This document shows positions 7,307 through 51,024 of a DNA stretch of 64,000 nucleotides, in pieces. The translations under genes and the position numbers were made by a program. This DNA is from Kangiella taiwanensis (lineage in GTDB: Bacteria; Pseudomonadota; Gammaproteobacteria; Enterobacterales; Kangiellaceae): NCBI RefSeq assembly GCF_020005165.1, contig NZ_JAHCLT010000001.1, forward strand, positions 434,001 through 498,000, read 5' to 3'. Within the stretch, counting starts at the first letter, position 1. Each line of letters starts with the position of its first letter. The notes below the pieces were generated by a model. That model saw nothing but the letters and a program-made list of their open reading frames with translations, did not search any database and was not told where the DNA came from.

Positions 7307-7930
7307 ATGAGAAAGTTAGCTATTTTTGCTTTTGTTTTTGTAGCGTGGAGTGCACCAACGACGGCCCTAGAGGGTGACGTAGCGAAAGGTGCAGAATTGG
7401 CTTCAACTTGTGCCGCCTGTCATGGTAAAGACGGTAACAGTGGTAATCCAATGTGGCCTAAGTTAGCAGGTCAAAATGAAAAGTACCTTGAGAAGCAAAT
7501 TAAAGACTTCCAAGCAGGTACAGAAGATCCGACCCAGGGTCGTTACGACGCTTCGATGGCGCCGATGGTTAAAAACTTGAGCGAACAAGATATTGCTGAT
7601 TTGTCGGCATATTTTGCGTCACAAGAAATTCAACTGGGTGCTGTAAGTAAAGAATTCTTGGATTTAGGCAAGAAGATTTACTTCCAAGGTGACGCTGAGC
7701 GTAAAGTACCAGCATGTAGTGCGTGTCATGGTGCTACAGGCCAAGGTCTGAATCTTGCGGGCTACCCAGCGGTATCGGGCCAGCATCCAGAATACGCAAT
7801 CAAGCAGTTAAAAGCATTTTCACATGGCGAGCGTGCTAATGACGCTAACGCTATTATGCGCGACATTGCGATTCGCATGTCAGATCAGCAGATTGAAGCT
7901 GTGGCTCACTTTATGTTGGGTTTACACTAA
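7307..7930 (+). CDS. Diheme cytochrome c4
   Basis: A 207-residue periplasmic electron carrier made of two fused class I cytochrome c domains. It has a signal peptide (MRKLAIFAFVFVAWSAPTTA). Two CxxCH heme-attachment sites are seen, CAACH near residue 36 and CSACH near residue 140. Distal methionines are plausible in MAPMV and the C-terminal MRD/MSD segments. Cytochrome c4 passes electrons to terminal oxidases (cbb3-type in several marine bacteria). The ATG is preceded by GTAGG. The polA–engB–c4–dsbA order is typical of non-enteric gammaproteobacteria. Confidence 0.95.
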   Translation: MRKLAIFAFVFVAWSAPTTALEGDVAKGAELASTCAACHGKDGNSGNPMWPKLAGQNEKYLEKQIKDFQAGTEDPTQGRYDASMAPMVKNLSEQDIADLSAYFASQEIQLGAVSKEFLDLGKKIYFQGDAERKVPACSACHGATGQGLNLAGYPAVSGQHPEYAIKQLKAFSHGERANDANAIMRDIAIRMSDQQIEAVAHFMLGLH

Positions 7931-7960
7931 TTGACTTGCATTTAGCGCGAGATTCAAGGT

Positions 7961-7988
7961 AAAAAGGCGACTGATGGTCGCCTTTTTT
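7961..7988 (+). terminator. Terminator after cytochrome c4
   Basis: GGCGAC (7966-7971) pairs with GTCGCC (7977-7982), flanked by five A and six T, 31 bp after the stop codon. Confidence 0.9.
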
Positions 7989-8044
7989 ATTGGCTGTTTG
8001 ATTCAAGGCAAATCATATAGTGCTCAGGAAACTAGGAAAATGTA

Positions 8045-8626
8045 ATGCGTAGATTATTAATTCTATTCATATTGTCATTCGTAACTGCGGTAGCTTCTGC
8101 GGAATTCAAAGCGGGTAAAGATTATTGGAAAATCAGTCAGTTGGATGGGATCCCAGTTGCCACGGGAGACAATCTTTTCTTTACGTGGTTAGGGTGTGAT
8201 TCGTGCCGTAAGTTAGAAGCAGAATTAGCACAAGAGCTTGAAGGGTTCGAAGTGGTTCCCTTGATTGCTCGCCAAGAGTGGCGTCCTGCAGCGAAAGTAT
8301 TTTATGTTATGCAAATTCTCGACGGCGAGCCAGATGCTTTGTTGAAATTGAAACAACAAATTGATGCAGGTGAGGTTGATCCTAAAGATCAAAATGCACT
8401 GTTTGAAGCAATTTTTGAATTAGGCTACGACAAGCAAGAAGTTGCAGAACTGCTTGAAGACCGGAGCTTATATCAACGTATTAACCAAGCCGAAGCATTA
8501 GCTAAAAATTATGCGATTCAATACGTACCAACGGTAGTGGTCAAAGGACAATATGCCACAGATGCACGCAGTACCATGACTGTGAAGAAGTTTCGAGAAG
8601 TTCTGAATTACCTGAATTCGCTATAG
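8045..8626 (+). CDS. DsbA-like periplasmic thiol:disulfide interchange protein
   Basis: A 193-residue protein with a signal peptide (cleavage after AVASA) and a thioredoxin/DsbA fold. The active site is CDSC at residues 51-54, not the CPHC of classical DsbA. The cis-proline loop is seen as YVPTVVV near residue 163, and the helical insertion is between them. DsbA oxidises thiols of newly exported proteins. Its place directly after cytochrome c4 matches the c4–dsbA pairing seen in pseudomonads. The altered dipeptide between the cysteines should change redox potential, so it may be a variant oxidase or isomerase rather than the housekeeping DsbA. Confidence 0.8.
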   Translation: MRRLLILFILSFVTAVASAEFKAGKDYWKISQLDGIPVATGDNLFFTWLGCDSCRKLEAELAQELEGFEVVPLIARQEWRPAAKVFYVMQILDGEPDALLKLKQQIDAGEVDPKDQNALFEAIFELGYDKQEVAELLEDRSLYQRINQAEALAKNYAIQYVPTVVVKGQYATDARSTMTVKKFREVLNYLNSL

Positions 8627-8630
8627 CAAA

Positions 8631-9401
8631 CTAGTCGTCCTTCAGGACTTTTTCATTGCAGTGGTGACTGGCGTTATACAGCGCTGCTAAGGTTGCTGAG
8701 CGGAACTCTCGACGGTATAACACACCAACCACTAAGGTTGCAGCAACCATAAAGACAACGGGGTTAAAGAACCAGCCAAGAGTCGCAAGTGCGAAGGTGT
8801 AAGCTCTCAAGCCATAATTAAACGAGTTTGAAGCACGGCTCATAAGCCAGTTAGTGTGTTTTATAAATATCTCTCTATCGCTTTTTGGGTCATCTATATC
8901 CGGCGCTGAGCCAAACAGCACAATAGCGAAATTATACTGCCGCATCGACCAGGTGAACTTGAAAAAAGCGTAAGCAAAAGTCACCACTAATATCAAAATT
9001 TTCAATTCCCAAGCTGCGCGGGAGTCTATCTCAATCCAAGGTAGAGCTTCTAGCAGTGGAATGGCTTTATCTGTCGAGCCAAGGACGGTAAGTAAACCGG
9101 CAATGATGAAAATGGTGGTGGAGGCAAAGAAAGTGACGTTTCTTTGTAATATCCCTAAGCTAGTGACATCCGCCATACGCATATCGCGTTCAATCATGCG
9201 CTCGAGCCACTCAACGCGATTAGCTTCGAGCTGATTAGCGATAGTTGAACTATTGCGTTGTTTGATTCGAGCAAAATAGGTGTAACCTACCCAGCATACA
9301 AGGAACCAACCAAGGGCAATCCAGTCGAGCGGTGGCATGAAAGAAAAGGTCATAACGTAAGTTTGTCGGTACGGTTGCAATGAATAGGCTAAAAGTGCCA
9401 T
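8631..9401 (-). CDS. DUF599 family inner-membrane protein
   Basis: A 256-residue protein with four hydrophobic segments (about 23-40, 90-108, 130-150, 205-235). Its motif-rich middle (RMIERDMRMADVTSLGILQRN, then FFASTTIFIIAGLL) is characteristic of DUF599. Function unknown. The start is uncertain. The first ATG overlaps the 5' region of the divergent gene, and later ATGs at 9353 and 9338 are possible; none has a strong ribosome binding site. It is convergent with the DsbA-like gene, with only 4 bp between stops. Confidence 0.75.
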   Translation of the reverse strand: MALLAYSLQPYRQTYVMTFSFMPPLDWIALGWFLVCWVGYTYFARIKQRNSSTIANQLEANRVEWLERMIERDMRMADVTSLGILQRNVTFFASTTIFIIAGLLTVLGSTDKAIPLLEALPWIEIDSRAAWELKILILVVTFAYAFFKFTWSMRQYNFAIVLFGSAPDIDDPKSDREIFIKHTNWLMSRASNSFNYGLRAYTFALATLGWFFNPVVFMVAATLVVGVLYRREFRSATLAALYNASHHCNEKVLKDD

Positions 9402-9454
9402 GCTTTATGCCTGAACACAAGCGAATCTTAGTAATCAACCCGATAAGGAAAAGT

Positions 9455-11533
9455 ATGCAAAATACTTTGAAAGCAGCGAGCAGCCCTTACCTACAGCAAC
9501 ATAAAGATAACCCTGTACATTGGCAGCAATGGAGCGATGACGTTCTAGCGTTAGCGAAAGAACAGGATAAGCCCATACTGTTGTCGGTCGGTTACTCATC
9601 CTGCCATTGGTGCCATGTCATGGCACATGAGTCATTCGAAGATCCTGACGTGGCGACTGTAATGAATGATTTGTTTATCAATATTAAACTTGATCGGGAA
9701 GAACGTCCGGATTTAGATAAGACGTACCAGTTGGCACATCAGTTGCTCAATCGTCAGGCAGGCGGTTGGCCTTTGACCGCAGTACTGGATCCGCAAACGT
9801 TGGTGCCTTTTTTTAGCGGTACCTACTTTCCCAAAGAAGCCAAGTTTGGGTTGCCAGCATTTACAGAGTTGTTACAGAAAATTAGCGAAGTGTTCAACGA
9901 GCAACGGCAAGAAATTCATGAGCAAAATGGTCGCCTGAGCCAAGCGCTTCAAGTGGTCGCTGGTGGTAGTGAACAAGACGGTGGGAGTAGCAGTGAGCTC
10001 GTATCGCTGACATCAGTCTTGGCATCGAACATTATAGAGCGAGCGGATTCTCGTCACGGAGGGATGGAGGGGGCGCCAAAATTTCCTCAACCCGCGATTT
10101 GGAGCGCGGCATTGCACCTTGCCCAATCAGAGTGGCTAGAAAAAGAGCAGGCCCAAGGCATAACGGAGGCTATTAACCAGTCTTTAAAAGGTTTTAGACA
10201 GTATGGCTTGTTTGACCATTTGGGAGGAGGTTTCTTTCGCTATTGTGTAGATGAGCGCTGGGAAATTCCTCATTTTGAAAAAATGTTGTATGACAACGGG
10301 CAGCTTCTAAGCCTCTTGTCAGAAGCAGGACAACATTATGCCGATGGCGACATAATGCAGGCTGTAGATTTGACTATTCGGTGGCTTGAAGAGCAAATGT
10401 TGTCACCGGAAGGCGGCTTTTATTCTGCGCTAGATGCAGACAGTGAGGATGACCAGGGACGCAGTCGAGAGGGTGCGTATTATTGCTGGCAGCTTCAGCA
10501 ACTGGAGTTCCTTAATGAAGACGAGCAACGCTTTGCGAAAGCTTATTATGGGCTTAATCAGTCGGCGAACTTCGAGGGTAAGTGGCACTTAGTGACTCGT
10601 CAGTCCTGGCGTGAGGTGGCGAAAGACCTTAATGTTCATGAAAAACAATCGCCGATTTTAATGGAATCTGCCAGACAGCAGATGAAAATGGTGAGGGATA
10701 AGCGACTCTTACCGTTTCGAGATGACAAGCTGTTAACCAGCTGGAATGCGCTGACGGTACAAGGATTGTTGCAAGCTAAAAAAGCAGGGAGCAAAGCTGT
10801 AACAGATGAGTTGATTGAAGGTTGTATTGAGTTTTTACGACGCAAAGTATGGAGTGAACAACAACTGTGGGCATGTTTCAAAGATGGAAAGCACTACCAA
10901 CCAGCATTTTTAGATGATTACGGTTATTTAGCGAAAGCACTATTGCTATCGCTGAGTGATCAGTTTTCGCAACAAAATTGGGTTTGGTTAACCCAAATCA
11001 TCGATATCTTGTGGCATGAGTTTGCGGATCAAGCGAATGGAGGATTTTATTTTACATCGGAACAACAAGAGACGGTGATCACTCGCCACAAAAGTTGGAG
11101 CGATGATGCTATGCCGAGTAGCACGACTCAGGCGCTGGAGGCATTGTGGGTGGTGGCTGAATTAACTAACGATACAGAAAAGCTGAGTTTTGTGGAGAAT
11201 AGTCTCCATAGCGCTGCTGCACAGGCTAAACAATCACCACTACAGCACCCTTCTGTCATTCGACTACTTGATATTTGGCAAAAGGGTTTGGAGTTATGGG
11301 TGTTGCGAGGGGAAAGCTTCGAGTTGCCCTCGTGGCATGAGTATTTGGCAACGGGATTAAACCCTGGACGCTGGGTTTTTGCGTTAGAAAAGGGCATAAA
11401 TGATGTGGCACTGGAGAAGAAGTTCCCGGCAAAAGCAGACATGGCTGCCTACTGTTGCCGTGAACACCAATGCTATCCGCCGATAGAGTCTTTCGAACAA
11501 TTAAAAGAATTTGTCGGGACTCACGCTATTTAG
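9455..11533 (+). CDS. YyaL/SPATA20-type thioredoxin-domain protein (DUF255)
   Basis: About 692 residues. The N-terminal thioredoxin-like domain begins with the family signature SPYLQQHKDNPVHW and has a CHWCH motif near residue 50. It is followed by a large alpha/alpha-barrel domain resembling N-acylglucosamine 2-epimerases and glycoside hydrolases (FPQPAIW, GGFFRYCVDERWEIPHFEKML, ALDADSED). The family is widespread (YyaL in Bacillus, SPATA20 in animals), but its reaction is not established. I chose the ATG at 9455 because AAGGA sits just upstream and the conserved domain begins immediately after it; an in-frame ATG at 9380 would add 25 poorly conserved residues. It ends tail to tail with elbB, overlapping by 4 bp. 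Confidence 0.9.
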   Translation: MQNTLKAASSPYLQQHKDNPVHWQQWSDDVLALAKEQDKPILLSVGYSSCHWCHVMAHESFEDPDVATVMNDLFINIKLDREERPDLDKTYQLAHQLLNRQAGGWPLTAVLDPQTLVPFFSGTYFPKEAKFGLPAFTELLQKISEVFNEQRQEIHEQNGRLSQALQVVAGGSEQDGGSSSELVSLTSVLASNIIERADSRHGGMEGAPKFPQPAIWSAALHLAQSEWLEKEQAQGITEAINQSLKGFRQYGLFDHLGGGFFRYCVDERWEIPHFEKMLYDNGQLLSLLSEAGQHYADGDIMQAVDLTIRWLEEQMLSPEGGFYSALDADSEDDQGRSREGAYYCWQLQQLEFLNEDEQRFAKAYYGLNQSANFEGKWHLVTRQSWREVAKDLNVHEKQSPILMESARQQMKMVRDKRLLPFRDDKLLTSWNALTVQGLLQAKKAGSKAVTDELIEGCIEFLRRKVWSEQQLWACFKDGKHYQPAFLDDYGYLAKALLLSLSDQFSQQNWVWLTQIIDILWHEFADQANGGFYFTSEQQETVITRHKSWSDDAMPSSTTQALEALWVVAELTNDTEKLSFVENSLHSAAAQAKQSPLQHPSVIRLLDIWQKGLELWVLRGESFELPSWHEYLATGLNPGRWVFALEKGINDVALEKKFPAKADMAAYCCREHQCYPPIESFEQLKEFVGTHAI

Positions 11534-38578: not shown

Positions 38579-40228
38579 TTGCAGAAAAAAACATCATTAA
38601 ACTCAAAAGTCACTGACGCCAGCGTTTATCGCTGGCGTCAGCGTATGGGCGCTTGGTTGCCAGTGACATTACTGGCGGCCGTATTCGCAATTTGCGTCAT
38701 GCCTCTGATGCCACTCTTGGGCTCATGGGGGCAAGTTGAGTCTGAGCTGTGGTCGCATCTATGGCAAACTGAGCTACCTGAACTATTTTCTAACACCATC
38801 ATTCTGATCCTACTGGTTGGAACGGCAAGCTTTCTGCTTGGAGTCAGTCTCGCTTGGCTCGTCGTTATGTACGACTTCCCTGGCAGAAACATTTTGCAAT
38901 GGGGGCTGATGCTACCTTTAGCGATCCCGCCTTATATATTAGCGTTTGTACTCTTAGGCTTCACCGATTTCGGTGGCCCACTCCAGAAACTCTTATTCTC
39001 CCTTGGTCTAGGCATTGAGTGGTTGCCAGATATGCGTAATCCGCTTGGGGTGGGGTTAGTCTTTACACTTTCTCTCTATCCGTACGTCTATTTATTGATG
39101 CGTAGTGCTTTGCAGCGAAAAGGTCGCTCGAGTTACGAGAGTGCGCGAACTTTAGGTTACAGCAAGGCTGGTGCTTTTTGGCGACTAGTCATACCGCTGA
39201 CGCGCCCAGCATGGGTTGCAGGTTTGGCTTTGGTCTTGATGGAGACTCTGGCCGACTTTGGCGCGGTCAGTATCTTTAACTACAACACCTTCACCACAGC
39301 TGTATATAAATCATGGTACGGTTTTTATAGCCATGGCACAGCAGCGCAGTTGGCTTGCTTATTACTACTGTTCGTGAGCTTAGCTGTGATTGCTGAGAAG
39401 TGGGGGCGCGGTAAAGGACGTTATGAGCAATCCGGTGCCGCATTAAAACAGTACCGTCAGCATCTAACAGGGTTCTGGGGAGTATTAGCACAAGTTGGCG
39501 CATGGTCAGTGTTTGCGTTGGGCTTTATATTGCCAGTCATTCAGCTGCTTTACTGGGTCGTCAGTAGCTTCGAACAGCATACCGAAGGCACGATTGATCT
39601 CTTATTCAACACAGTCATATTGGCTGTGTTAGCGGCAGTGATCACTTTGTTAGTCGCTAGCATCATGGTCTGGGCGCAGCGCCAAAAACAGACTAAGTCG
39701 AGAAGCTTTATGACAGAGTTCTCGCAGTTGGGGTATGCCATGCCGGGTACTGTGTTGGCAGTTGGCATTATGATGGCGCTCAACGGGATCGATAGTTGGA
39801 TCGCTGACATCATGGATGATCAAAGCCAATGGCTGGCGACAGGGTTGTTCGCCTTACTGCTCGCCTACGTCATTCGATTCCTGCGAATTGGTTACGGCCC
39901 ACTGTCGAGTTCGATGGGTCAAATCAAACCAAGCGTCGTAGAAACGGCGGGAATTCTCGGCGCTGGAAAGCGCGAAAGACTATTTCGAGTATATATTCCC
40001 TTGCTGCGCCCAGGCGTATTTACCGCATTACTGTTGGTGTTCGTCGAAGTGATGAAGGAGATGCCAGCGACTCTAATCTTAAGAACTTACGGCTGGGACA
40101 CGCTGGCAGTGCGTATCTATGAGCTCAGCGCCGAAGGCCAGTGGGAGCTGACCTCGTTACCTGCGATTATGCTGGTTGCCGTAGGGATCATTCCGGTTAT
40201 ATTATTAATAAAAAAGAGTGAGGTTTAA
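38579..40228 (+). CDS. Iron(III) ABC transporter permease (fused double domain)
   Basis: A 549-residue inner-membrane protein of the FbpB/AfuB type with two tandem BPD-transport domains and about 12 membrane helices. Two EAA-type loops are visible, YESARTLGYSKAGAFWRLVIPL (~184-205) and VETAGILGAGKRERLFRVYIPL (~457-478). These dock the ATPase. The start is uncertain: TTG at 38579 after a weak AGAAG, or ATG at 38645 just after an 11-bp hairpin. No ATP-binding subunit (FbpC) gene is adjacent; the next gene encodes a lipoprotein, so an ATPase must come from elsewhere. Confidence 0.9.
   Translation: MQKKTSLNSKVTDASVYRWRQRMGAWLPVTLLAAVFAICVMPLMPLLGSWGQVESELWSHLWQTELPELFSNTIILILLVGTASFLLGVSLAWLVVMYDFPGRNILQWGLMLPLAIPPYILAFVLLGFTDFGGPLQKLLFSLGLGIEWLPDMRNPLGVGLVFTLSLYPYVYLLMRSALQRKGRSSYESARTLGYSKAGAFWRLVIPLTRPAWVAGLALVLMETLADFGAVSIFNYNTFTTAVYKSWYGFYSHGTAAQLACLLLLFVSLAVIAEKWGRGKGRYEQSGAALKQYRQHLTGFWGVLAQVGAWSVFALGFILPVIQLLYWVVSSFEQHTEGTIDLLFNTVILAVLAAVITLLVASIMVWAQRQKQTKSRSFMTEFSQLGYAMPGTVLAVGIMMALNGIDSWIADIMDDQSQWLATGLFALLLAYVIRFLRIGYGPLSSSMGQIKPSVVETAGILGAGKRERLFRVYIPLLRPGVFTALLLVFVEVMKEMPATLILRTYGWDTLAVRIYELSAEGQWELTSLPAIMLVAVGIIPVILLIKKSEV
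38614..38640 (+). repeat. Perfect hairpin at the binding-protein/permease junction
   Basis: TGACGCCAGCG (38614-38624) and CGCTGGCGTCA (38630-38640) form an 11-bp stem with loop TTTAT and no T run. It lies within the first codons of the permease if TTG is the start, or 4 nt before ATG 38645. Such hairpins often protect the upstream binding-protein mRNA and lower permease translation. Confidence 0.7.
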
Positions 40229-40240
40229 GGAGGGAGTGAA

Positions 40241-40945
40241 ATGAAGAGTTTATTATTTTGTCTATTGGTGATGCTCAGTACAGGTTGTTCATATAAAAGT
40301 TACACAAGTAAAGTAGGAAAGTCGACTCATGTTACTGGCGAAGAAAAGTTAGTAACGATTGCAACAAGCCCAGAAAACAACATTGTAACGAGCGCTAGCT
40401 TAGGTGAGCTAATGTTCACTGTAGAAAAGCGTGGAAAGGGTGGAGAAATTTTTATAACACATTCTCCTTCAACAGATCTTGGGTTTCCAAATACAAATAA
40501 ATGGCAACATACTCATAATTATAACGATGGGGTTTCGGGCACTTTAAAGGTTTATTCGCACCCTGATTTTTACCACGGGAACATTGGAGTAATACTGAAT
40601 AGAAATGGTACAACATACTCTGAGAAACCATTGGTTCAACTGTCTGGGGTAAAGGAAGGTAGACGTTGGCAGGTATCAGGAAGCGGAAATTTTTTTAAGG
40701 CGGCCAATATTTTATTAGAAAGCTGGGGCTTGAGGTATGGTGGAGAAAATGACGGAGTATATGTTTTCGAAATATTGGACAGAAGGGACGCGAATGTAAC
40801 CCAGGTAATCCAGCGGCTTGAAATAACATCGGATAAATTTTTAGAAGGGCTTTTTGTAAGAGGTGTAATGCTGAAGGGTCTTGCTTTAGATGATAAAGGT
40901 TTAATCAAGTACGTGATTAAATCTTACCCAAATGAAAAGCATTAA
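40241..40945 (+). CDS. Hypothetical lipoprotein
   Basis: A 234-residue protein with a lipoprotein signal peptide (lipobox LSTGC, residue 16). The mature part is beta-rich with no domain I recognise. A very strong ribosome binding site (AAGGAGG) precedes the ATG, 12 bp after the permease stop. It may thus share the Fur-controlled transcript and could serve iron uptake, but base composition is more A+T-rich and no motif links it to iron. Confidence 0.65.
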   Translation: MKSLLFCLLVMLSTGCSYKSYTSKVGKSTHVTGEEKLVTIATSPENNIVTSASLGELMFTVEKRGKGGEIFITHSPSTDLGFPNTNKWQHTHNYNDGVSGTLKVYSHPDFYHGNIGVILNRNGTTYSEKPLVQLSGVKEGRRWQVSGSGNFFKAANILLESWGLRYGGENDGVYVFEILDRRDANVTQVIQRLEITSDKFLEGLFVRGVMLKGLALDDKGLIKYVIKSYPNEKH

Positions 40946-41022
40946 AATAACAAAATAGTATATCAGCAAGTATCCATTCCCTTAGAGGAGTCTTTTGGGT
41001 TCTTTTGTCATTCGAACCCCTG

Positions 41023-41028
41023 TATAAT
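41023..41028 (+). promoter_or_regulatory. gcvT promoter -10
   Basis: A perfect TATAAT lies 45 bp upstream of the gcvT ATG. At 17 bp the -35 is only TTCTTT, so it may need an activator. No glycine-riboswitch core was found in 40946-41073. Confidence 0.5.
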
Positions 41029-41073
41029 CATGCGCCATTATGACCACTCAATTGTTTAAGGAACGGTGTCGTT

Positions 41074-42162
41074 ATGGGCAGTAAAACACCTTTGTATCAG
41101 GCGCACGTTGACGCTGAAGCGCGTATTGTTGATTTCGGTGGCTGGGATATGCCGCTAAATTATGGTTCGCAGATTGATGAGCATGCAGCTGTGCGTGAAG
41201 CTGCGGGTATGTTTGACGTCTCACACATGACCATTGTTGAAATTAAAGGCAGCGAAGCTAAGCCGTACTTGCAATATTTATTGGCCAATGATGTGGCTAA
41301 GCTTAAAGATTCAGGTAAAGCGCTTTATACCGGCATGTTAAACGAAGATGGCGGTGTTATTGATGATCTTATCGTCTATTATTTAAACGATGCCCATTAC
41401 CGCGTAGTGGTTAATGCGGCGACTCGCGAGAAAGATTTAGCTTGGCTGGAGAATGTTGCTCAGCAGTTTGATGTGTCAGTCGAAGAGCGTTCTGATTTAG
41501 CCATTATTGCCGTCCAAGGCCCCGAAGCAATTGAGAAAGCGCAGTCGACGTTCTCAGATGAGCAAAAACAAGCCGTTGCTGAGTTGAAACCGTTTGTGGC
41601 AGCTTATGCTGGAGACTTGTTCGTCGCTCGTACGGGTTATACCGGTGAAGACGGGTACGAAATCTTAGTTCCAGACAATAAAGCCGTTGAGCTGTGGAAT
41701 GCTTTGATCAAAGCGGGCGTTAAGCCATGCGGTTTAGCTGCACGCGATACGCTACGTCTAGAAGCGGGCATGAATTTGTATGGCCATGACATGGATGAAA
41801 CGGTATCGCCGTTAGAAGCCAACATGGGCTGGACCATTGCTTGGGAGCCGGAAGGTCGTGATTTCGTGGGTCGTAAGGCTCTAGAAGCGCAAAAGGCTAG
41901 TGGCATTCCACGTAAGCTGATAGGTTTGGTGCTTGATGGCAAAGGCATTATGCGTGAAGGCCAAGAAGTTCTCGTAAACGATGAAGTGGTTGGCGTCGTG
42001 ACCTCTGGTACTATGTCACCGACTACAGGTAAAAGCATCGCGATGGCCCGCGTGCAGCGTTCGGTCGATGCCGAAGACGTTCTAGTGCAGGTTCGTAAGA
42101 AGCAAATTCCGGCGAAAGTGGTAAAACCGAGTTTCGTACGTAAAGGTAAGTCATTGATTTAA
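41074..42162 (+). CDS. gcvT: Aminomethyltransferase (glycine cleavage T protein)
   Basis: A 362-residue tetrahydrofolate-dependent enzyme that releases ammonia from the lipoamide-bound aminomethyl group and makes methylene-THF. Motifs: [18 protein letters not shown] at the N terminus, [47 protein letters not shown] and a C-terminal barrel with [18 protein letters not shown]. Length matches E. coli GcvT (364). A terminator separates it from gcvH, so the three gcv genes are clustered but apparently have separate promoters. Confidence 0.97.
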
Positions 42163-42190
42163 GGTTGGCGCCTAGAGCGCTAACCTTTTT
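42161..42190 (+). terminator. Terminator between gcvT and gcvH
   Basis: AAGGTTGGCGC (42161-42171) pairs with GCGCTAACCTT (42177-42187), one G-U pair and loop CTAGA, followed by T's. It overlaps the gcvT stop codon. Confidence 0.88.
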
Positions 42191-42225
42191 GTACACATTA
42201 ACGCAAAACCCTTGCTGAGAAAGGC

Positions 42226-42254
42226 TTGGGCAGCGCTAAAGTTTCATATACAAT
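42226..42254 (+). promoter_or_regulatory. gcvH promoter
   Basis: TTGGGC (42226-42231), a 17-bp spacer and TACAAT (42249-42254) lie about 58 bp before the gcvH ATG and after the gcvT terminator. Confidence 0.55.
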
Positions 42255-42311
42255 ACGATTAATTTTTGAACTGATAGATTACCCTGGCGGGTGGCTATAG
42301 AGGAAGAGACA

Positions 42312-42698
42312 ATGAGCCAAATTCCAGCAGAATTAAAATATGTATCGAGCCACGAGTGGATCCGTGATGAAGGTGACGGCATCGTAACCGTTGGTATTAC
42401 TGAGCATGCACAAGAGTTACTTGGTGACGTGGTGTTCGTAGAAGCGCCAGAAGTGGATAGCGAAGTCGACGTAGAAGACGAAATCGCGGTTGTTGAGTCG
42501 GTTAAAGCTGCATCCGATATCTATGCGCCATTAGCGGGCACTATCACTGAAGTGAACGAAGAGCTGGAAGATTCACCAGAATTAATCAACAGCGATCCTT
42601 ACGGTGACGGCTGGATGTTCAAGATGAAAATTGACTCAGGTGATTTGGACTCACTGCTATCGGCAGAAGAGTACGCTGAAGAAATCGCTGACGAATAA
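42312..42698 (+). CDS. gcvH: Glycine cleavage system H protein
   Basis: A 128-residue lipoyl carrier that shuttles the aminomethyl intermediate between P, T and L proteins. The lipoylation site is K65 in [11 protein letters not shown]. The start at 42312 (MSQIPAEL) follows GAGGAAGAG at good spacing; an in-frame start at 42291 would read through that ribosome binding site. Strongly acidic, as usual for the family. The 318 bp to gcvP hold a structured RNA candidate, not a gene. Confidence 0.97.
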
Positions 42699-42879
42699 AT
42701 TATTGGCTCATAGCTTCGTTAAATGTATCAATAACTCAGCTCGTTTAGCATAAAGTAAACGTCGCCTCGTTATTAACACATTTGCCTTGCTCTGAACGCA
42801 ATAATAGTTTGGTTGGTGCGTTTTCTAAAGTTTTAAGATTTGGAGCTAAATGCTCTGAACTCAGTATTAAATAATAGGA

Positions 42880-42961
42880 TGGGTTAGCCGAGAGGCGTAA
42901 TCCACCAGTCACTAGCCAACAGTGACACATTTTAAGGGCCTCGAGTTGTTCGAGGCTTTTT
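42880..42961 (+). ncRNA. Structured RNA with terminator upstream of gcvP
   Basis: Three consecutive hairpins lie in the 318-bp gcvH–gcvP gap. The first (about 42879-42903) is TTAGCC/GGC(G)TAA with a GAGA tetraloop and a GGA/TCC extension. The second is GTCACT/AGTGAC (42908-42926). The third is a Rho-independent terminator GCCTCGA/TCGAGGC (42938-42956) with five T. It ends 55 nt before gcvP. It could be an attenuator or riboswitch-like leader for gcvP, or an independent small RNA. I did not recognise a glycine-riboswitch core. The 5' end is unknown; 42699-42878 shows no gene. Confidence 0.55.
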
Positions 42962-43016
42962 CGATTAAACAGTTTATGCAGATCGGCATAATTGAAATTG
43001 ATAGGTCGCGACCAGT

Positions 43017-45881
43017 ATGACTGATAAAACAAGCTTGCAAGATTTACAACAGTCGGATGATTTTATCCGCCGCCATTTAGGTCCTCGTGAGAACGAGATT
43101 CAAGAAATGCTCAGTGAGCTGGGCTTGTCTTCATTAGACGACTTAGTAGAAAAGGCTGTTCCGCATAAAATCCAAGTGAAAGAGCCGATTGGCGTTGAAG
43201 CGTCTCGTTCTGAACGTGAGACCTTGGAATACTTACAGTCGCTGGCGGACGAAAATATTGTCGCCAAGTCATACATAGGTATGGGCTATTACGACACGGT
43301 TACACCTGCTGTCATTCAGCGAAATGTGCTTGAAAATCCAGCATGGTATACGGCTTATACGCCATACCAGCCTGAGATCGCGCAAGGTCGTTTGGAAGCA
43401 ATTCTAAACTTCCAGCAAATGACGATGGATTTGACGGGTATGGAGTTAGCGAGCGCGTCATTGTTAGATGAAGCAACCGCAGCTGCTGAAGCTATGGGCT
43501 TAGCAAAACGATCGTCAAAGAATAAAAAATGCAATACCTTCTTTGTTGATGAGAAAACCTTCCCGCAAACCATTGATGTGGTGAAAACGCGTGCTGAGCA
43601 CTATGGCTGGGATTTAATTATTGGGCCAATCGAAGAAGCAGCTAGTCACGATGTCTTTGGTGCATTATTGTCATACACCAACGTGCACGGTGACATTACA
43701 AACCTTGAAAGCATTATCGAAAAGCTACATGAGAAGAAAGCAATAGCGTGCGTAGCTGCAGATATTATGAGCTTAGTATTATTGAAGTCGCCAGGCGAGA
43801 TGGGCGCTGATGTAGTATTCGGTTCAGCCCAACGCTTCGGTGTTCCAATGGGCTTTGGTGGCCCACACGCAGCCTTCTTTGCGACACGTGAATCATTCAA
43901 GCGCTCGTTACCAGGTCGTATTATCGGTGTGTCAAAAGATACGCGTGATAACAATGCATTACGAATGGCGATGCAGACCCGTGAGCAACATATTCGTCGC
44001 GAAAAAGCGACATCAAATATTTGTACAGCGCAGGTATTGTTAGCCAATATTGCGAGTTTCTATGCGGTGTATCATGGCAAAAAAGGTCTAACGACCATTG
44101 CCAGTCGTATCAATCGCTATGCTTCAATCGTCGCTTCGGCGGTAGTCAATTCAGGTATGGAAGTGGTCAATGACCATTGGTTTGATACCGTGACATTCCG
44201 AGCTTCTGATGTGGAAGCGATTCAAGATCGTGCCAAAGAAGCGCTCGTTAACTTACGTTACGATGGTGACTTGGTAAGCTTCTCGATCGATGAAGCAAAA
44301 AGCCAAGCTGATATCGAGCAATTAATCGAAGTCATTACGGGAGCAGAGTCAGATATTTTTGAATTGGATAGCGAGGCTCAACCATCAATCCCTGAGCAAC
44401 TGGTCCGTCAGTCAGATTTCTTAACGCATCCAACGTTTAACGACTATTACTCTGAAACGGATATGTTGCGTTATATCAAGCGTTTAGAAACAAAGGATTT
44501 CTCATTGGTTCATGGCATGATCCCACTAGGTTCGTGCACCATGAAACTGAATGCAACCAGTGAAATGATGCCAGTCACTTGGCCTAAATTTGCATGTATC
44601 CATCCGTTTGCTCCTGAAGACCAAACCTATGGTTACATCAAGATGATCAAGGAACTCGAAGCAGACTTGGTGGAAATTACCGGTTACGACTTTGTTTCGA
44701 TGCAACCAAATTCTGGGGCACAGGGTGAATACGCAGGCTTAATTGCGATTAAAAAGTATCACGAAAGCCAGGGTGAAGGTCATCGTAATATTTGCCTAAT
44801 CCCTAGCTCAGCACACGGTACCAATCCAGCGTCTGCCCAGATGGCTGGCATGAAAGTTGTGATTACGAAGTGTGATGAGAACGGTAACGTTGATGTTGAC
44901 GATCTAAAGGCGAAAGCTGAAGAGATGAAGGACAACTTAGCGGCACTAATGGTGACCTATCCTTCAACACACGGCGTTTACGAAGAAGAAATTAAAGATA
45001 TTTGTGACATCATTCATGACAACGGTGGTCAGGTCTACATGGATGGTGCCAACATGAATGCGCAGGTGGGTATTTCACGCCCAGGCGATATTGGTTCAGA
45101 CGTCTCACACCTAAACCTACACAAAACATTCGCTATTCCTCATGGCGGTGGTGGCCCAGGTATGGGACCAATTGGTGTTAAGTCACACCTAGCACCTTTT
45201 GTATCGGGGCACTCAGTCCGTAAAGTGCATAGTGTAGAAGCGCGCGATAACGCGGTTTCAGCAGCGCCTTATGGTAGCGGCATGATTCTTCCGATTTCAT
45301 GGGCCTACATTAAAATGCTAGGCCAAGTCGGTTTGCGTCGTTCAACAGAAGTTGCGTTATTGAATGCTAACTACCTGAAAAATAAGTTATCTGAGCACTA
45401 TCCAGTCTTGTATGTGGGTCGTAACGATAAAGTCGCTCATGAGTGCATCATTGATTTACGTGATATTAAAAACGAGACTGGTATCAGTGAAGTCGATTTT
45501 GCGAAACGCTTGATGGATTATGGTTTCCATGCCCCAACAATGAGCTTCCCAGTTGCTGGCACCTTCATGATTGAGCCAACGGAAAGCGAATCTAAGTATG
45601 AATTGGATCGTTTTGTTGACGCCATGATTCGCATCCGTCAGGAAGTTGAAAAAGTGGCTAGCGGCGAGTGGGATAAAGACAATAACCCACTGGTTAACGC
45701 ACCACATACTCAGGCTGACCTACGTGATTGGGATAAACCTTACTCTATTGCAGAAGCTGTTTATCCATCAGAAGCAACAGTTCTCAGCAAGTTCTGGCCA
45801 ACGACAAATCGAATTGATGATGTGTTCGGCGACAGAAACTTAATGTGTAGTTGCCCAGCGACAGAAACTTATGCGGAATAA
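43017..45881 (+). CDS. gcvP: Glycine dehydrogenase (glycine cleavage P protein)
   Basis: A 954-residue PLP enzyme that decarboxylates glycine and loads the aminomethyl group onto GcvH. It is the undivided form, with both homologous halves fused. The N terminus has [17 protein letters not shown]; the PLP-lysine motif [18 protein letters not shown] is near residue 708; [15 protein letters not shown] and [18 protein letters not shown] are also present. The ATG lies just after a 10-bp palindrome GGTCGCGACC (43004-43013) that includes the only ribosome-binding-site-like sequence. A good terminator follows. It works with gcvT, gcvH and a dihydrolipoamide dehydrogenase encoded elsewhere. Confidence 0.98.
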
Positions 45882-45908
45882 ATTTCTGTCAACTGAGTAC
45901 TTGACTTG

Positions 45909-45935
45909 AAAGCCAGCGTTAGCTGGCTTTTTTTA
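45909..45935 (+). terminator. Terminator after gcvP
   Basis: AGCCAGC (45911-45917) and GCTGGCT (45922-45928) with loop GTTA are followed by seven T. A TATAAT at 45934-45939 immediately after it could be the -10 of the precursor peptide gene. Confidence 0.92.
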
Positions 45936-46004
45936 TAATGCTAGGGTATAAATGGAGCGTTTGGCTTGAAATGCATGTATTACGGGGAATTGTAAGGAAT
46001 TAAT

Positions 46005-46229
46005 ATGTCTAAAAAGAAATTTGAAGAATTCGTTATCAAACTATCGGAAGATCCAAAACTCAACGAGTCATATGTAGAAAATCCAGAAGCTGTTATGAAG
46101 GATTTCGGTTTAGAGGAGCGCGAAATAAAAGCTATTATGAAAGGCGATCAGAAGGAAATTAAAAATATCTTAGGCGACCCGCAAAATTGTTTGGTAATAA
46201 TTGTCATGTGCAAGGACAAGAAAAAATAA
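46005..46229 (+). CDS. Putative split-borosin RiPP precursor peptide
   Basis: A 74-residue peptide. Residues 1-57 form an all-helical leader/recognition domain (FEEFVIKLSEDPKLNESY, then NPEAVMKDFGLEEREIKAIMKGD). This closely follows, from memory, the borosin-binding domain of the Shewanella oneidensis precursor SonA (NPEAVM, GL-E-I-AVM-GD spacing). The C-terminal candidate core is hydrophobic: C62-LVIIVM-C69 and then a KDKKK tail. Borosin cores are Val/Ile/Leu-rich and receive backbone alpha-N-methyl groups. AAGGAA precedes the ATG. One nucleotide separates its stop from the methyltransferase ATG. The paired cysteines around the core are unusual. Confident as a precursor by pairing; modified positions are unknown. 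Confidence 0.85.
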   Translation: MSKKKFEEFVIKLSEDPKLNESYVENPEAVMKDFGLEEREIKAIMKGDQKEIKNILGDPQNCLVIIVMCKDKKK

Positions 46230-46230
46230 T

Positions 46231-47025
46231 ATGAAAGAACAAAGAGGGAGTTTTGTCGCAGTAAGTACAGGCATGCTCTTAGCAGGACATATTACAGCGA
46301 GATGCCAAAAAATAATAGAAGAAGCTGATGTCATTTATTGCTTAGTGCCGCATGCATTATGTGAGACTTGGCTTAAAAATTGTAATTCTAATGTGAAAAG
46401 CTTACAGCCCTATTATAAAAAAGGGAGGAATAGGGTGCAGACTTACGAAAAGATGGTTGACGTTATGATGAATGATGTTCGTGAAGGGAAACGAGTATGC
46501 GGAGCTTTTTATGGGCATGCTGGGGTTTTTTCTTGCGTGCCCCACATGGCGATTGAGCAGTCACATAAAGAGGGTTTTGTTGCTTATATGGAGCCAGGTA
46601 TTTCTGCAGAGGCGTGTTTATATGCTGACCTGCAGATAGATCCCGGTAACTATGGGGTGCAAAGTATTGAAGCAACTCAGTTGATGTTGTTTGATCATAC
46701 GTTAAACACGAAAGGCTATATATTATTGTGGCAAATAGCTATCGCTGGAGACCATACGGCAAGTAAATTTAGTAGTGATGAGAGTAAATTACAGTGTCTA
46801 GTGAACCATCTCTACAAAGACATCCCAAGTGATCACGAGGTAATTATTTATGAAGCAAAATTCACGCCGCTTGATGAGGTTAGGAAAGAAAAAGTCAAGC
46901 TGATGGATTTGCCAAAACAAGAACTTAAATTACACTCGACTTTAGTTATTCCGCCCGTGCAAGAACTGGAGTATGACCAAGCTATGTTGAGAGAGTTAGG
47001 GATTACAGGACTTGAATATACATGA
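46231..47025 (+). CDS. Putative borosin alpha-N-methyltransferase (split type, SonM-like)
   Basis: A 264-residue enzyme with the tetrapyrrole-methylase (SAM) fold, but not a porphyrin enzyme by context. Motifs: GSFVAVSTGMLLAGHITARC at the N terminus, NRVQTYEKMV, AFYGHAGVF, MEPGISAEACLYADLQIDPG, and LLWQIAIAGDH. The catalytic residues known from fungal OphMA (Y66, R72, Y76, Y98) have counterparts at the same spacing: Y62, R68, Y72, Y94. Unlike fungal borosins, no core peptide is fused at the C terminus; the precursor is the separate gene 1 bp upstream. The ATG at 46231 is preferred over a TTG inside the precursor gene. SAM-dependent iterative backbone N-methylation of the precursor core is the predicted reaction. 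No protease or exporter gene is adjacent. Confidence 0.88.
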   Translation: MKEQRGSFVAVSTGMLLAGHITARCQKIIEEADVIYCLVPHALCETWLKNCNSNVKSLQPYYKKGRNRVQTYEKMVDVMMNDVREGKRVCGAFYGHAGVFSCVPHMAIEQSHKEGFVAYMEPGISAEACLYADLQIDPGNYGVQSIEATQLMLFDHTLNTKGYILLWQIAIAGDHTASKFSSDESKLQCLVNHLYKDIPSDHEVIIYEAKFTPLDEVRKEKVKLMDLPKQELKLHSTLVIPPVQELEYDQAMLRELGITGLEYT

Positions 47026-47093
47026 TAGTTAAAGATCTTCGTGAAAAATTTCTGATAGAATGAAGAAAATGCATTTAATCGATGGAGTTTTAA

Positions 47094-48149
47094 ATGTTTA
47101 GTAGATGGATTTTTTTGTTGGGTATAACTCTATTACCATTGCAAGTAGTTGCTGAAGAAAGTTATTTATCAACACTTCTTGATATTGAGAAAGAGATGTT
47201 GAATGGCAATGATGCTGTAAAAGAAAAGCTTGCTTCAATAGAAGGGGAGTACGAAAAGTTTACACAAGAAGAAAAAGAACTTTATGGTTTACTTAAAGCT
47301 CGCAACCAATATCTTTATTCTGAACTAAAAGCTTCAGAGGAAACTTTAAAAAAGCTTTTAGAAAGTCCAGTGACGCCTGATACGAGGGCGCAAGCCAATA
47401 TCATATTAGCAGGCATCGAGCATTTACGTGGAAATAGTATTGAAGGTTTTATGGCAATCGATAGAGCCATAAACATGTTAGGTAAAGTTAAAAATAAGAA
47501 TTACAGACTCAGTATTTTAAATACGGCTATTGGAATATATAAAGAATCAGAGCTTCTAGAATATGCCCTTGAGCACGCACGTCGTTTAAAAGTAGAGGTT
47601 GGCGAGAGTAATGACAATATGTCTTTATGTGTAGCTAACTACGAACTAGGAACCATTGAAGTCATGGTGAATAGCGATAAAATGGCTTGGCAAAGACTAT
47701 TATTAACAAAGAATTATTGCAAAAAAGCAAATAATAAACTGATGACAATAGCGACAGATTATTATTTAGCGAAGGTAGAGAGTGGAAGAGGGGAGTACAA
47801 AAAAAGTATTGATAGGTTGCTGCCCTCCTTAGAGCAAGCCAATGATATCGGTTGGAAGTTATTAATAGCGAGTATAAACGCTGATCTAGCTGGGAATTAC
47901 TTAGAGTTAGGAGAAAACAAAGCTGCAAAGCAAAGAGCTTTGTTGTCGTATCAGTTAGCAACAGAAGCGAAAGATAAAAGACGTTTGCAAAAAGCCGCGT
48001 CGCTACTTGGACAAATCTACTCGAATGAAGGGAAAAGGGATGAAGCTCTAAAGTACTACAATGAGTTTAGGGAGTTAAGCACAGAGAATAAAGTTAAGAT
48101 AAGGCAAAGAAAGTTAGCTTTTGATATAGCAAGAAGAGGTAGAATTTAG
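47094..48149 (+). CDS. Secreted TPR protein, first of three tandem paralogues
   Basis: A 351-residue protein with a signal peptide (to about residue 20, VVAEES) followed entirely by helical tetratricopeptide-type repeats (YALEHARRLKVEVGES, ANYELGTIEV, DEALKYYNEFRELS). It ends in a basic RQRKLAFDIARR motif shared with the next two genes. The layout resembles the periplasmic TPR sensor part of membrane diguanylate cyclases or kinases, but no membrane helix or output domain follows. GGAG precedes the ATG; an extended -10 (TG plus TAGAAT, 47053-47061) lies upstream. It starts 68 bp after the borosin methyltransferase. A shared role is inference from position. Confidence 0.7.
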   Translation: MFSRWIFLLGITLLPLQVVAEESYLSTLLDIEKEMLNGNDAVKEKLASIEGEYEKFTQEEKELYGLLKARNQYLYSELKASEETLKKLLESPVTPDTRAQANIILAGIEHLRGNSIEGFMAIDRAINMLGKVKNKNYRLSILNTAIGIYKESELLEYALEHARRLKVEVGESNDNMSLCVANYELGTIEVMVNSDKMAWQRLLLTKNYCKKANNKLMTIATDYYLAKVESGRGEYKKSIDRLLPSLEQANDIGWKLLIASINADLAGNYLELGENKAAKQRALLSYQLATEAKDKRRLQKAASLLGQIYSNEGKRDEALKYYNEFRELSTENKVKIRQRKLAFDIARRGRI

Positions 48150-48151
48150 GG

Positions 48152-49219
48152 TTGGTAGTAAAACTGAAAAGTATTATATCCACGCTTATTTTAATAGTGG
48201 CAACCATGGCAGTCAGTGCCGAAGAGGGTGCCTACTACCAAGAGCTTGTAAGCGTTGAGAGAAATATGCTCAACGGAAACAGTTATATTGAAAAACGTTT
48301 AAAAGTTCTATCACAGGATAAAGATAAATTTACACCATTAGAAACAGATTTTTATCAACTCCTTCGAGCACATCATGATTACTTATCATCTAACTTGGAG
48401 GCTTGTAAAGAAAGGTTGGCTATTCTCATAAAGCAAACCAAAAGTATTGATATTAAAGCTAAAGCAAATATTTTGCTGGCAACAGCTGAACACGTTTTAG
48501 GGAACCATGTTGAGAGTTTTATTGCCCTAGATAAAGCTGTGACAGCAGTTCCTAATCTAACAAGACAAAGGTATAAAGCGAGCATATTACAAACGGCAGT
48601 AGGGATATATCAACAAGCAGAATTATTTGAGTTTGCACTGGAGTTAGCTCGAAACTTACAGGTTGAAGCTAGAAAGTTAAAGCATGGCGAGTACCTGTGC
48701 ATTGCCAACTATGAATTAGGGATGATAGAGCGGAGAACGGGGCAAATCAAAATGGCTAAACAGCGTCTGATGTTAGCGGTTGATTATTGTAAAAACAATG
48801 AAAGTAAAATTTTTGAATATGTCTCTATTATCGCTCTCAATGAAATTGAGGCTGATCAAGGTAAACTTAAAAAAAGTAATGCAGAGTTACTTAAAATAAT
48901 TGGGCCAGTCAATGCGATAGGCTGGAAAAATTTAATTGCTCAATTGAATATAGCGATTGCTAAGAACTATTTTAGGTTGAACAAGTACGATAGGGCCGAA
49001 GAGTATGCGCTAGCGTCCTATCATAAAGCAAGCGAGGGAAAAGATAGACGCCGGCTACAAATATCTGCTGAAATCTTAGCACAGATATACTCAAAAACTG
49101 GTCAAAAAGAAGAAGCTATAAAATATTACAATGAATTTAGAAAGTTGAACTCTGAAAATAGAGTAAAAGTAAGACAAAGGAAACTTGCTTTCGATATTGC
49201 ACGTAGAGAAGAGAGTTAA
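48152..49219 (+). CDS. Secreted TPR protein, second paralogue
   Basis: A 355-residue protein clearly homologous to its neighbour: YYQELVSVERNMLNGN, FIALDKAVTAV, FALELARNLQVEA, CIANYELGMIE, and the ending KVRQRKLAFDIARR. It has a signal peptide (to about residue 23, AVSAEEG). The start appears to be TTG at 48152, two bases after the previous stop; no ATG is available before the signal peptide core. Translation is probably coupled. No enzyme motif is seen. Confidence 0.68.
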   Translation: MVVKLKSIISTLILIVATMAVSAEEGAYYQELVSVERNMLNGNSYIEKRLKVLSQDKDKFTPLETDFYQLLRAHHDYLSSNLEACKERLAILIKQTKSIDIKAKANILLATAEHVLGNHVESFIALDKAVTAVPNLTRQRYKASILQTAVGIYQQAELFEFALELARNLQVEARKLKHGEYLCIANYELGMIERRTGQIKMAKQRLMLAVDYCKNNESKIFEYVSIIALNEIEADQGKLKKSNAELLKIIGPVNAIGWKNLIAQLNIAIAKNYFRLNKYDRAEEYALASYHKASEGKDRRRLQISAEILAQIYSKTGQKEEAIKYYNEFRKLNSENRVKVRQRKLAFDIARREES

Positions 49220-49223
49220 GTTT

Positions 49224-50303
49224 ATGAATATGAAAGCTATAGTATTAATCAGTATGTTGTATTCGATAGTGGCCAATATAGCAAGCGCGGCTTATTTGGA
49301 CGAGTTGCAAGTCATTGAAAGACAAAGGCTGAGTAATTTAGCGAATACTAAGTTGTCACTCGAGAAAATATCAAAACATAAGGCAAACTTCTCAAGCAAA
49401 GAAAAGTATCTCTATTTATTACTGGTAGCGCACTCTGAAACTATGCATAGTAATTTTGTTGAGGCAGAAGCGTTGTTATTAGATATTATCGGTAGTGAAG
49501 CTGATGTTGATTATAAAGGGCGTGCCCATTCGATCCTCGCGGGTGTGTTGCAGTTTCAAGGTAAGTACGAGAGATCTTATTATCATTTAGATAAATCCTT
49601 AGGATTTGTTCCAGTCATTAACAATGAAGAGTATAAGTCGAGTATCTTACAGAATGCTGTAAGTTTTTATAATGACTCAGGCATGTTTGATTATGCAATG
49701 GACTATGCTCGGCGGTTACTTAAACTAGGAATACAAAGAAAAGACTTATCTGATCAGTGCCAAGCATATTTTGAGATGACCCTTATGGAATTATCAGCTG
49801 ATAGGCATGAGCTAGCCGTAGACAGGTTGGCTAAAACAGATGATATATGCACAAAAGCAAATGAAACAATTTTTTTATTGCACTTACCGAATATCAGGGC
49901 AGATATAGCGATACAAAAAGGTGACTTCACTTCGGCCAAGAAACTTTTAGAAGAGAATTATAGCGAAGTTAAAAAATATGGGTGGAAAGTTCTCAATGCA
50001 AGCACTGAAATCAGTTTAGCGAATTTGTACTCAAAAATAGGTCGATACGGTGAAGCTGAAGAGTTAGCTTTAAAAGCATTGAAGGTTTCGATGGAGATAG
50101 GCGACATCAAACGCTCCAAAGGCGCGAGTGAAATCTTGGCAAAGATTTATTCTGAGCTTGACCAAAAAGAGAAGGCTATCAAGTATTTTCAAATGTATAT
50201 GGAGCTCGATAAAAGGTTAAGCGCTTCGGGTCGCCAGCGTAAACTAGCTTTTGATCAAGCAAGACAAAAACTTAAAGCAGAGCAGTTAGCGTTGGTTAAC
50301 TAA
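49224..50303 (+). CDS. Secreted TPR protein, third and most divergent paralogue
   Basis: About 359 residues. A signal peptide (MNMKAIVLISMLYSIVANIASA) is followed by the same TPR array (FDYAMDYARRLLKLGI, AEELALKALKVSMEIGD, EKAIKYFQMYMELD) and the terminal RQRKLAFDQARQ motif. ATG 49224 is preferred over 49185, which overlaps the preceding gene and lacks a signal peptide at its start. It is convergent with mutH, and the two stops overlap by 8 bp. Sequence divergence suggests an older duplication than the first two copies. Confidence 0.68.
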   Translation: MNMKAIVLISMLYSIVANIASAAYLDELQVIERQRLSNLANTKLSLEKISKHKANFSSKEKYLYLLLVAHSETMHSNFVEAEALLLDIIGSEADVDYKGRAHSILAGVLQFQGKYERSYYHLDKSLGFVPVINNEEYKSSILQNAVSFYNDSGMFDYAMDYARRLLKLGIQRKDLSDQCQAYFEMTLMELSADRHELAVDRLAKTDDICTKANETIFLLHLPNIRADIAIQKGDFTSAKKLLEENYSEVKKYGWKVLNASTEISLANLYSKIGRYGEAEELALKALKVSMEIGDIKRSKGASEILAKIYSELDQKEKAIKYFQMYMELDKRLSASGRQRKLAFDQARQKLKAEQLALVN

Positions 50304-50955
50304 ATTGCTTTAGTAAACATTGCTTCGTAAATTGGGGGCGTAAATAAAAACCTCTAGGCAATGTCTTGATAGTTGAACCATCAGGCCCTATCGCATCGGT
50401 TAAAGCTTTTGAGTTGGCCGCCTTGGGTCTAACTTGCAAAATATCTCCTAACCTTGCGTCAACCTGTTCAATCCTTCCCATAGAAACTTGATCTAACACA
50501 TCTTCAAAGTCCTTTTTTAACACGCTCTCTTCTTCTCGCGTCGGTTGCCAGAGAAAAGGCATGGCGATTTGACGATTTTCAATAGCGATATCCCTGCTGG
50601 CAACGATAGGAATCCATAGTACGTGCATTAACTTATGACGGACCACGGAGTTTTCCCAGCGTAAGCCTTGTATGTTAGTCAAAGGTAAGACACTAACATA
50701 GGTAGACTCAAGTGGACGCCCCAGCTCATCGATTGGTAGAGTTTTCAGCTCAACACCGATTTCAGGGAAGTCCGGTTGCGCCAAGGAGCCGGACGTCGCA
50801 CCTAAAATCATTTCCAGAAACTGACCCACCCAACCCTTTTTATGGAGGAGCTGCTGTGGAATTTGCTCCTTATAGCGTTCGCATAACTCACCTAAAGTAA
50901 AGCCAGCAAAGCTCTGAGCGTAGTCTAGTAAAGCTTGTGGGTTCTCGTACTGCAT
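50296..50955 (-). CDS. mutH: DNA mismatch repair endonuclease MutH
   Basis: A 219-residue restriction-like endonuclease that nicks the unmethylated strand at hemimethylated GATC sites when activated by MutL. The catalytic set E48, D62 and E69-x-K71 (FPEIGVELKTLP) matches the E. coli residues at a constant offset. GWVGQFLEMILGA and VLPLTNIQGLRWENSVVRHKL-type segments are typical. Its presence implies Dam methylation in this organism. mutH and rppH are neighbours in E. coli too, and are divergent here. Confidence 0.96.
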   Translation of the reverse strand: MQYENPQALLDYAQSFAGFTLGELCERYKEQIPQQLLHKKGWVGQFLEMILGATSGSLAQPDFPEIGVELKTLPIDELGRPLESTYVSVLPLTNIQGLRWENSVVRHKLMHVLWIPIVASRDIAIENRQIAMPFLWQPTREEESVLKKDFEDVLDQVSMGRIEQVDARLGDILQVRPKAANSKALTDAIGPDGSTIKTLPRGFYLRPQFTKQCLLKQFS

Positions 50956-51024
50956 AATTTATTATTGTCGAAAGCATCGGTATGTGGAACAATGATAACA
51001 AAGTTTTATGATTTGGATGAATAG

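Follow-up and report, generated by a model that had tools for sequence, protein, structure and literature searches.

A split borosin locus of Kangiella taiwanensis with three apparently exported TPR proteins resembling the sensor half of borosin-linked TPR-GGDEF proteins

Split borosins are made by separately encoded proteins, and in SonM/SonA of Shewanella oneidensis these are a methyltransferase and a precursor peptide consisting of a borosin binding domain (BBD) and a core (PMC8429565). SonA is methylated at L63 and I65, and residues Y58, R67, Y71 and Y93 of SonM have been probed by mutation (PMC8429565). Split borosin types V-X have been reviewed in PMC11395268. When the family was described, neither a final product nor a function was known for any split borosin (PMC8429565). 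In the ComQXP systems of Bacillus, the modifying enzyme, the peptide and the receptor form distinct communication groups (PMC4008528, PMC4408185).

Here, we describe a computational analysis of a borosin gene pair in Kangiella taiwanensis and of the genes that follow it; the window is the whole stretch of DNA analysed, 64,000 nucleotides in length. Like SonM/SonA (PMC8429565), the window encodes a separate methyltransferase and a BBD-core precursor, with the same residues and the same precursor fold. In Shewanella and at a second locus of the host, a TPR-GGDEF gene adjoins the pair. Unlike SonM/SonA, the window has no GGDEF output, three soluble TPR proteins follow the pair, the core is CLVIIVMCKDKKK, and the loop between Y62 and R68 of the enzyme is three residues shorter. 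The locus also resembles ComQXPA of Bacillus (PMC4008528, PMC4408185), in that modifying enzyme, precursor and receptor are adjacent and occur in distinct co-varying types, but the enzyme chemistry and the receptor are different and there is no homology; moreover, the receptor output is missing from the window, and signalling is something that we infer here. The features of the gene pair are as follows.

45908..45938, + strand: intrinsic-terminator-like stem-loop 3' of gcvP, between gcvT-gcvH-gcvP and the borosin operon (10-pair stem, then a T-run)
45994..45999, + strand: ribosome-binding site AAGGAA of the precursor, read from the sequence
46005..46229, + strand: borosin precursor, 74 aa
46005..46172, + strand: borosin binding domain (leader), residues 1-56, five helices predicted by AlphaFold, with Foldseek matches to the SonA BBD
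46173..46226, + strand: linker and core GDPQNCLVIIVMCKDKKK, residues 57-74, more variable than the leader
46231..47025, + strand: peptide backbone alpha-N-methyltransferase, 264 aa, a SonM homologue with Y62, R68, Y72 and Y94 (phmmer, Pfam PF00590 at 2.5e-14, and tree)

An earlier note, made from the letters of this DNA, had described a 74-residue peptide followed 1 bp later by an enzyme and had read the two as a split borosin pair. Its coordinates are exact: the precursor opens with ATG (ORF 46005-46229), and a single base separates its stop codon from the ATG of the methyltransferase (ORF 46231-47025). The note had called for a comparison with SonM/SonA, and in phmmer searches against solved structures both proteins match, the enzyme to SonM (7ltc) at E 3.3e-76 and the precursor to SonA (9chi, 7ltc_B) at about 1e-10 (1.4e-10 at best). 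The fungal enzymes OphMA, dbOphMA and MroMA are matched at E 1e-36 to 1e-40. Matches of this strength exclude chance. The counterparts of four OphMA catalytic residues that the note had pointed to are borne out as well. Y62, R68, Y72 and Y94 do not vary in 17 homologues and align with SonM Y58, R67, Y71 and Y93, and the R-Y spacing of 4 is that of both SonM and OphMA (R72 and Y76 in PDB titles). Additionally, E147, W167 and Q168, the counterparts of the SonM conformational lock residues, are kept and are invariant in the same 17 homologues.

A cobalamin, siroheme or RsmI-type methyltransferase was considered and rejected. The best matches of this kind are a precorrin-2 methyltransferase at E 0.006 only and, in another search, hits below cut-offs, and the borosin profile does not match the host CysG (siroheme synthase) or RsmI even at E 10. 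Clustering with cobalamin or siroheme enzymes in a phylogeny had been named in the note as grounds for refutation; in the tree, the enzyme falls among SonM-like enzymes, apart from CysG and RsmI, whose branches are 7.6 and 10 changes per column long.

The AlphaFold model of the precursor (pLDDT 76.5) has helices at residues 2-15, 17-25, 27-34, 38-46 and 49-56, in keeping with the helical recognition domain proposed earlier. The first 30 PDB matches returned by Foldseek are all SonA chains, most with probability 1.00, and the top ones superimpose at 0.7-1.0 Angstrom rmsd over 48-55 residues. Variability is significantly higher in the last 17 residues than in the conserved leader (p 0.001; entropy 1.63 for the core vs 1.03 for the leader), as befits the C-terminal core that the note had recognised. 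This core has the hydrophobic sequence CLVIIVMC, in which L63 (46191-46193) and I65 (46197-46199) carry the same numbers as both methylated residues of SonA; by analogy, these would be the methylated positions of the Kangiella peptide. A signal peptide is absent from the precursor sequence. Pfam gives a LigA match at 3.8e-4, and LigA and the borosin precursor have the same helical fold; assignment as a LigA dioxygenase subunit was rejected, since this match lies below the cut-off and the SonA match is far better. By homology, it is near certain that the core is backbone methylated by its neighbouring enzyme, and the assignment of the gene pair to the known family of split (type IV) borosins is supported.

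The precursor, the methyltransferase and three TPR genes form an apparent operon, in which there is no protease or exporter gene. The terminator-like stem-loop upstream is called from its position and shape, and regional counts of such sites do not exceed those of shuffled sequence. A promoter scan of the region likewise gave no excess over shuffles, comparison of the stem-loop with the precursor gave no match, and Rfam found no RNA family at 40000-51000. A link to the glycine cleavage genes was rejected; the hairpin stands between them and the borosin operon, and other genomic positions are occupied by borosin loci of this family. We therefore take the gcvP neighbourhood to be an insertion site.

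The host genome, of 2.56 Mb, contains a second complete borosin locus (L032, C3:477000-492000), in which a precursor ending in GGEYPVVVHNVKEHNL, a TPR-GGDEF protein of 572 aa and then the enzyme are encoded in that order at 7821-10589. The note had counted bacterial backbone-methylated peptides as few; among species genomes, however, at least 571 encoded relatives were counted, the best 80 of which come from Kangiella, Shewanella, Rheinheimera, Lysobacter, Neiella, Dyella, Rhodanobacter and others. Each of the 20 Kangiella genomes searched has one to five borosin matches. Matches are rare in an evenly drawn class-wide sample, in which 5 of 185 genomes have any. Given the number of relatives, the uniform presence in Kangiella and the second host locus, the borosin pair as such is an ordinary member of a large known family. 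The note had read the gene pair correctly, but it had missed the second host locus, the family-wide link to TPR receptors and the three TPR genes downstream, which are listed here.

47094..48149, + strand: TPR1, apparently exported TPR protein, a GGDEF-less form of the borosin-linked TPR receptor and, by co-inheritance, the probable cognate partner of the pair (aligns with the TPR-GGDEF sensor half; covaries with methyltransferase and precursor)
48152..49219, + strand: TPR2, second apparently exported TPR protein, 79% identical to TPR2 of a species with another borosin pair type
49224..50303, + strand: TPR3, third apparently exported TPR protein, whose clade is confined to distal positions (tree, identities)

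Each of the three proteins starts with a signal-like stretch, as judged by eye, and export to the periplasm is therefore apparent from the sequence. Over 347 columns, the soluble TPR proteins can be aligned along their whole length with the sensor half of TPR-GGDEF proteins (probability 100). TPR1, TPR2 and TPR3 stop at the point from which a coiled coil, a membrane helix and a GGDEF domain would follow, and they have no GGDEF or HisKA output. Cys179 and Cys209 are invariant across the soluble and GGDEF-fused forms, a conservation that fits a periplasmic disulfide. In the host genome, this TPR family is found only at the two borosin loci, and there are 18 GGDEF matches. The AlphaFold model of TPR1 (pLDDT 90.8) has peptide-binding TPR superhelices as its PDB neighbours, LGN first and then the quorum-sensing receptors Rap and NprR (TM 0.55-0.66). 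Rap and NprR belong to the RRNPP peptide receptors, which are cytoplasmic and come from Gram-positive bacteria and phages; TPR1, unlike them, has an apparent signal peptide, and there is no sequence homology beyond the TPR. Because TPR folds are widely alike, this likeness is weak and is only consistent with peptide binding.

The association between TPR proteins and borosin enzymes extends well beyond Kangiella. Among the best-matching loci of the relatives, a TPR-family protein lies near the enzyme on the same strand in 80 of 80; a GGDEF match is also present in 71 of these, fused to the TPR in nearly all, and is absent from the Kangiella gcvP loci. Twelve further loci, at family and order level, all have a TPR domain, with GGDEF in 9 and HisKA-HATPase in 3 (one with receiver domains). 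Beside the enzymes of nearly all close relatives, a membrane helix connects the TPR domain to GGDEF or, in fewer cases, to a histidine kinase. A sensor joined to interchangeable outputs looks like a receptor. Four more distant borosin-type enzymes of the class-wide sample have no such TPR neighbour. A GGDEF-borosin link is not new: Figure 1 of PMC11395268 shows GGDEF among the components of some borosin clusters. Among the open papers searched, none joins borosin with tetratricopeptide, diguanylate cyclase or Kangiella; provisionally, the borosin-linked TPR sensor, the forms of it with a kinase and the array without GGDEF appear not to have been described.

The loci in which a histidine kinase replaces GGDEF behind the TPR domain are L171:8064-10919, L173:7980-9839 and L177:8060-10132. 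At L093:8137-9908 and L106:8053-9844, two consecutive ORFs encode the TPR half and the GGDEF half separately, which could reflect either a real split of the receptor or an assembly frameshift.

The GGDEF-less TPR proteins form one clade (support 97), as do the enzymes of the same locus (98); most simply, therefore, the output half was lost once, in the Kangiella gcvP-mutH locus. These loci carry one to four soluble TPR copies, and loss of the output followed by duplication of the TPR gene would most simply account for them. Four Kangiella genomes (L158, L159, L160 and L161) have a gcvP-TPR-mutH arrangement with one or two soluble TPR genes and without precursor and enzyme. The gcvP tree nests these four among pair-bearing genomes and requires at least three changes, so that, most simply, the pair has been lost repeatedly while the TPR genes stayed in place.

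Comparisons among Kangiella loci separate the precursor, the methyltransferase and TPR1 from the rest of their neighbourhood. Between the window and L034, identity is 98% for gcvP, 94% for mutH and 79% for TPR2; it falls to 68% for the precursor, 53% for the methyltransferase and 36% for TPR1. Between L034 and the more distant L035, gcvP is 93% identical, and the precursor, methyltransferase and TPR1 are 95%, 87% and 76% identical. Over eight loci, methyltransferase distances correlate with those of TPR1 at r 0.97, and precursor distances with those of TPR1 at 0.96; methyltransferase distances correlate with gcvP at 0.01 and with the last TPR at -0.12. Over 15 loci, the methyltransferase-TPR1 correlation is 0.93, or 0.87 as a partial correlation on gcvP, that with the last TPR is 0.41, and the genus-wide correlation with gcvP is 0.71. 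The trees conflict in the same manner: by its enzyme, the window joins L033 (96, and 100/100 in a second tree), and by gcvP it joins L034, L036, L037 and L039 (99). From these identities, correlations and conflicting trees, precursor, methyltransferase and TPR1 behave as one exchangeable unit, a pattern that is based on few exchange events and part of which can be produced by linkage between neighbours. L034, L037 and L039 still carry a TPR2 of the window type despite their pair being of another type, as expected if this TPR2 is the retained partner of a replaced unit. As in ComQXP, enzyme, precursor and putative receptor fall into types that change together, in conflict with the species background, here over few events and possibly with a part played by linkage.

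With homology, gene order, domain architecture and co-inheritance established, we propose, at about an even chance, that the locus encodes a modified peptide and its cognate periplasmic TPR binding partner, which ancestrally were a signal and its receptor. The five-helix leader of the precursor would dock on the methyltransferase, and the core would be threaded into the active site for SAM-dependent methylation of backbone amides, proceeding from N to C and most likely at L63 and I65 first. As a speculation, a host protease would then free the core, and the core would cross the inner membrane, its N-methylated, greasy nature perhaps helping. In the periplasm, TPR1 would bind the core product or a fragment of it, as gene order, the receptor fusions in relatives and co-inheritance lead us to infer; export and cleavage of the peptide and its signalling purpose are parts of the model in the same sense. 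In most relatives, the TPR domain would be the periplasmic sensor of a membrane-bound GGDEF enzyme or histidine kinase, and peptide binding would switch c-di-GMP synthesis or a kinase. At the Kangiella gcvP-mutH locus, the soluble TPR proteins might instead buffer, present or sequester the peptide, or act through a partner, and TPR2 and TPR3 would be retained partners of earlier precursor types.

If the exported TPR proteins are cut-down signalling receptors, this suggests a signalling role for the peptide, with a receptor matched to it. A broader version, which is tentative and on balance somewhat unlikely, is that gammaproteobacterial split borosins are cognate-type pheromones, sensed by a periplasmic TPR receptor that feeds c-di-GMP or a phosphorelay; the Kangiella receptor would have become soluble and duplicated, with the extra copies marking past pheromone types. 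Should the peptide prove to be a signal, Gram-negative bacteria would be using backbone N-methylation, which drug designers value for permeability and stability, for natural signalling. A receptor-like partner that travels with precursor and enzyme turns the function of split borosins into a direct binding question.

Counting against a cognate partner is the location of the two sides: the peptide is a cytoplasmic product, with neither a signal peptide nor a protease or exporter at the locus, and the TPR proteins are apparently periplasmic. Co-inheritance of adjacent genes can also come from linkage alone, the exchange events behind it are few, and the methyltransferase itself follows gcvP at 0.71 across the genus. 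The TPR proteins may serve otherwise, being kept without the borosin pair in four Kangiella genomes. Such persistence would also be seen if the methylated peptide had an unrelated role, such as metal binding or antimicrobial activity, and the TPR proteins were housekeeping periplasmic neighbours at an old insertion site. Other roles are common among RiPPs, and the more distant borosin-type enzymes have no TPR neighbours. We nevertheless consider this explanation unlikely, for the TPR gene stands beside the enzyme in 80 of 80 and 12 of 12 close relatives, which span many genera and differ in genomic site, the host genome has no member of the TPR family away from its borosin loci, and TPR1 covaries with the methyltransferase independently of gcvP.

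Tandem TPR copies of other types, TPR genes that outlast the pair, and exchange of the pair together with the first TPR gene all recall orphan immunity arrays. The methylated peptide could accordingly strike competitors, with TPR1 as the cognate protection and TPR2 and TPR3 as orphan protection genes of replaced types. This is improbable, as the GGDEF or histidine kinase output on the TPR protein of most relatives suits a receptor, export genes are absent at the locus, and the differences between types lie in the short hydrophobic core. Instead of taking part in signalling, the TPR proteins could be chaperones or carriers that hold the methylated core while it matures or is released. This would suit soluble exported proteins with a predicted peptide groove and a greasy core, but is very improbable given the GGDEF and histidine kinase fusions of relatives, the cytoplasmic enzyme and the in vitro activity of SonM without any TPR protein (PMC8429565).

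Other arrangements of the borosin genes were seen within Kangiella. At a third context (L046, L050-L055, L061, L062, L064, L066 and L067), the precursor core is followed by a PAEDD-type acidic tail, and one or two GNAT acetyltransferases adjoin the enzyme, possibly for a further tailoring step. At L038:1578-3800, a single gcvP locus holds two enzymes and two different precursors in a row, perhaps the replacement of one type by another caught midway.
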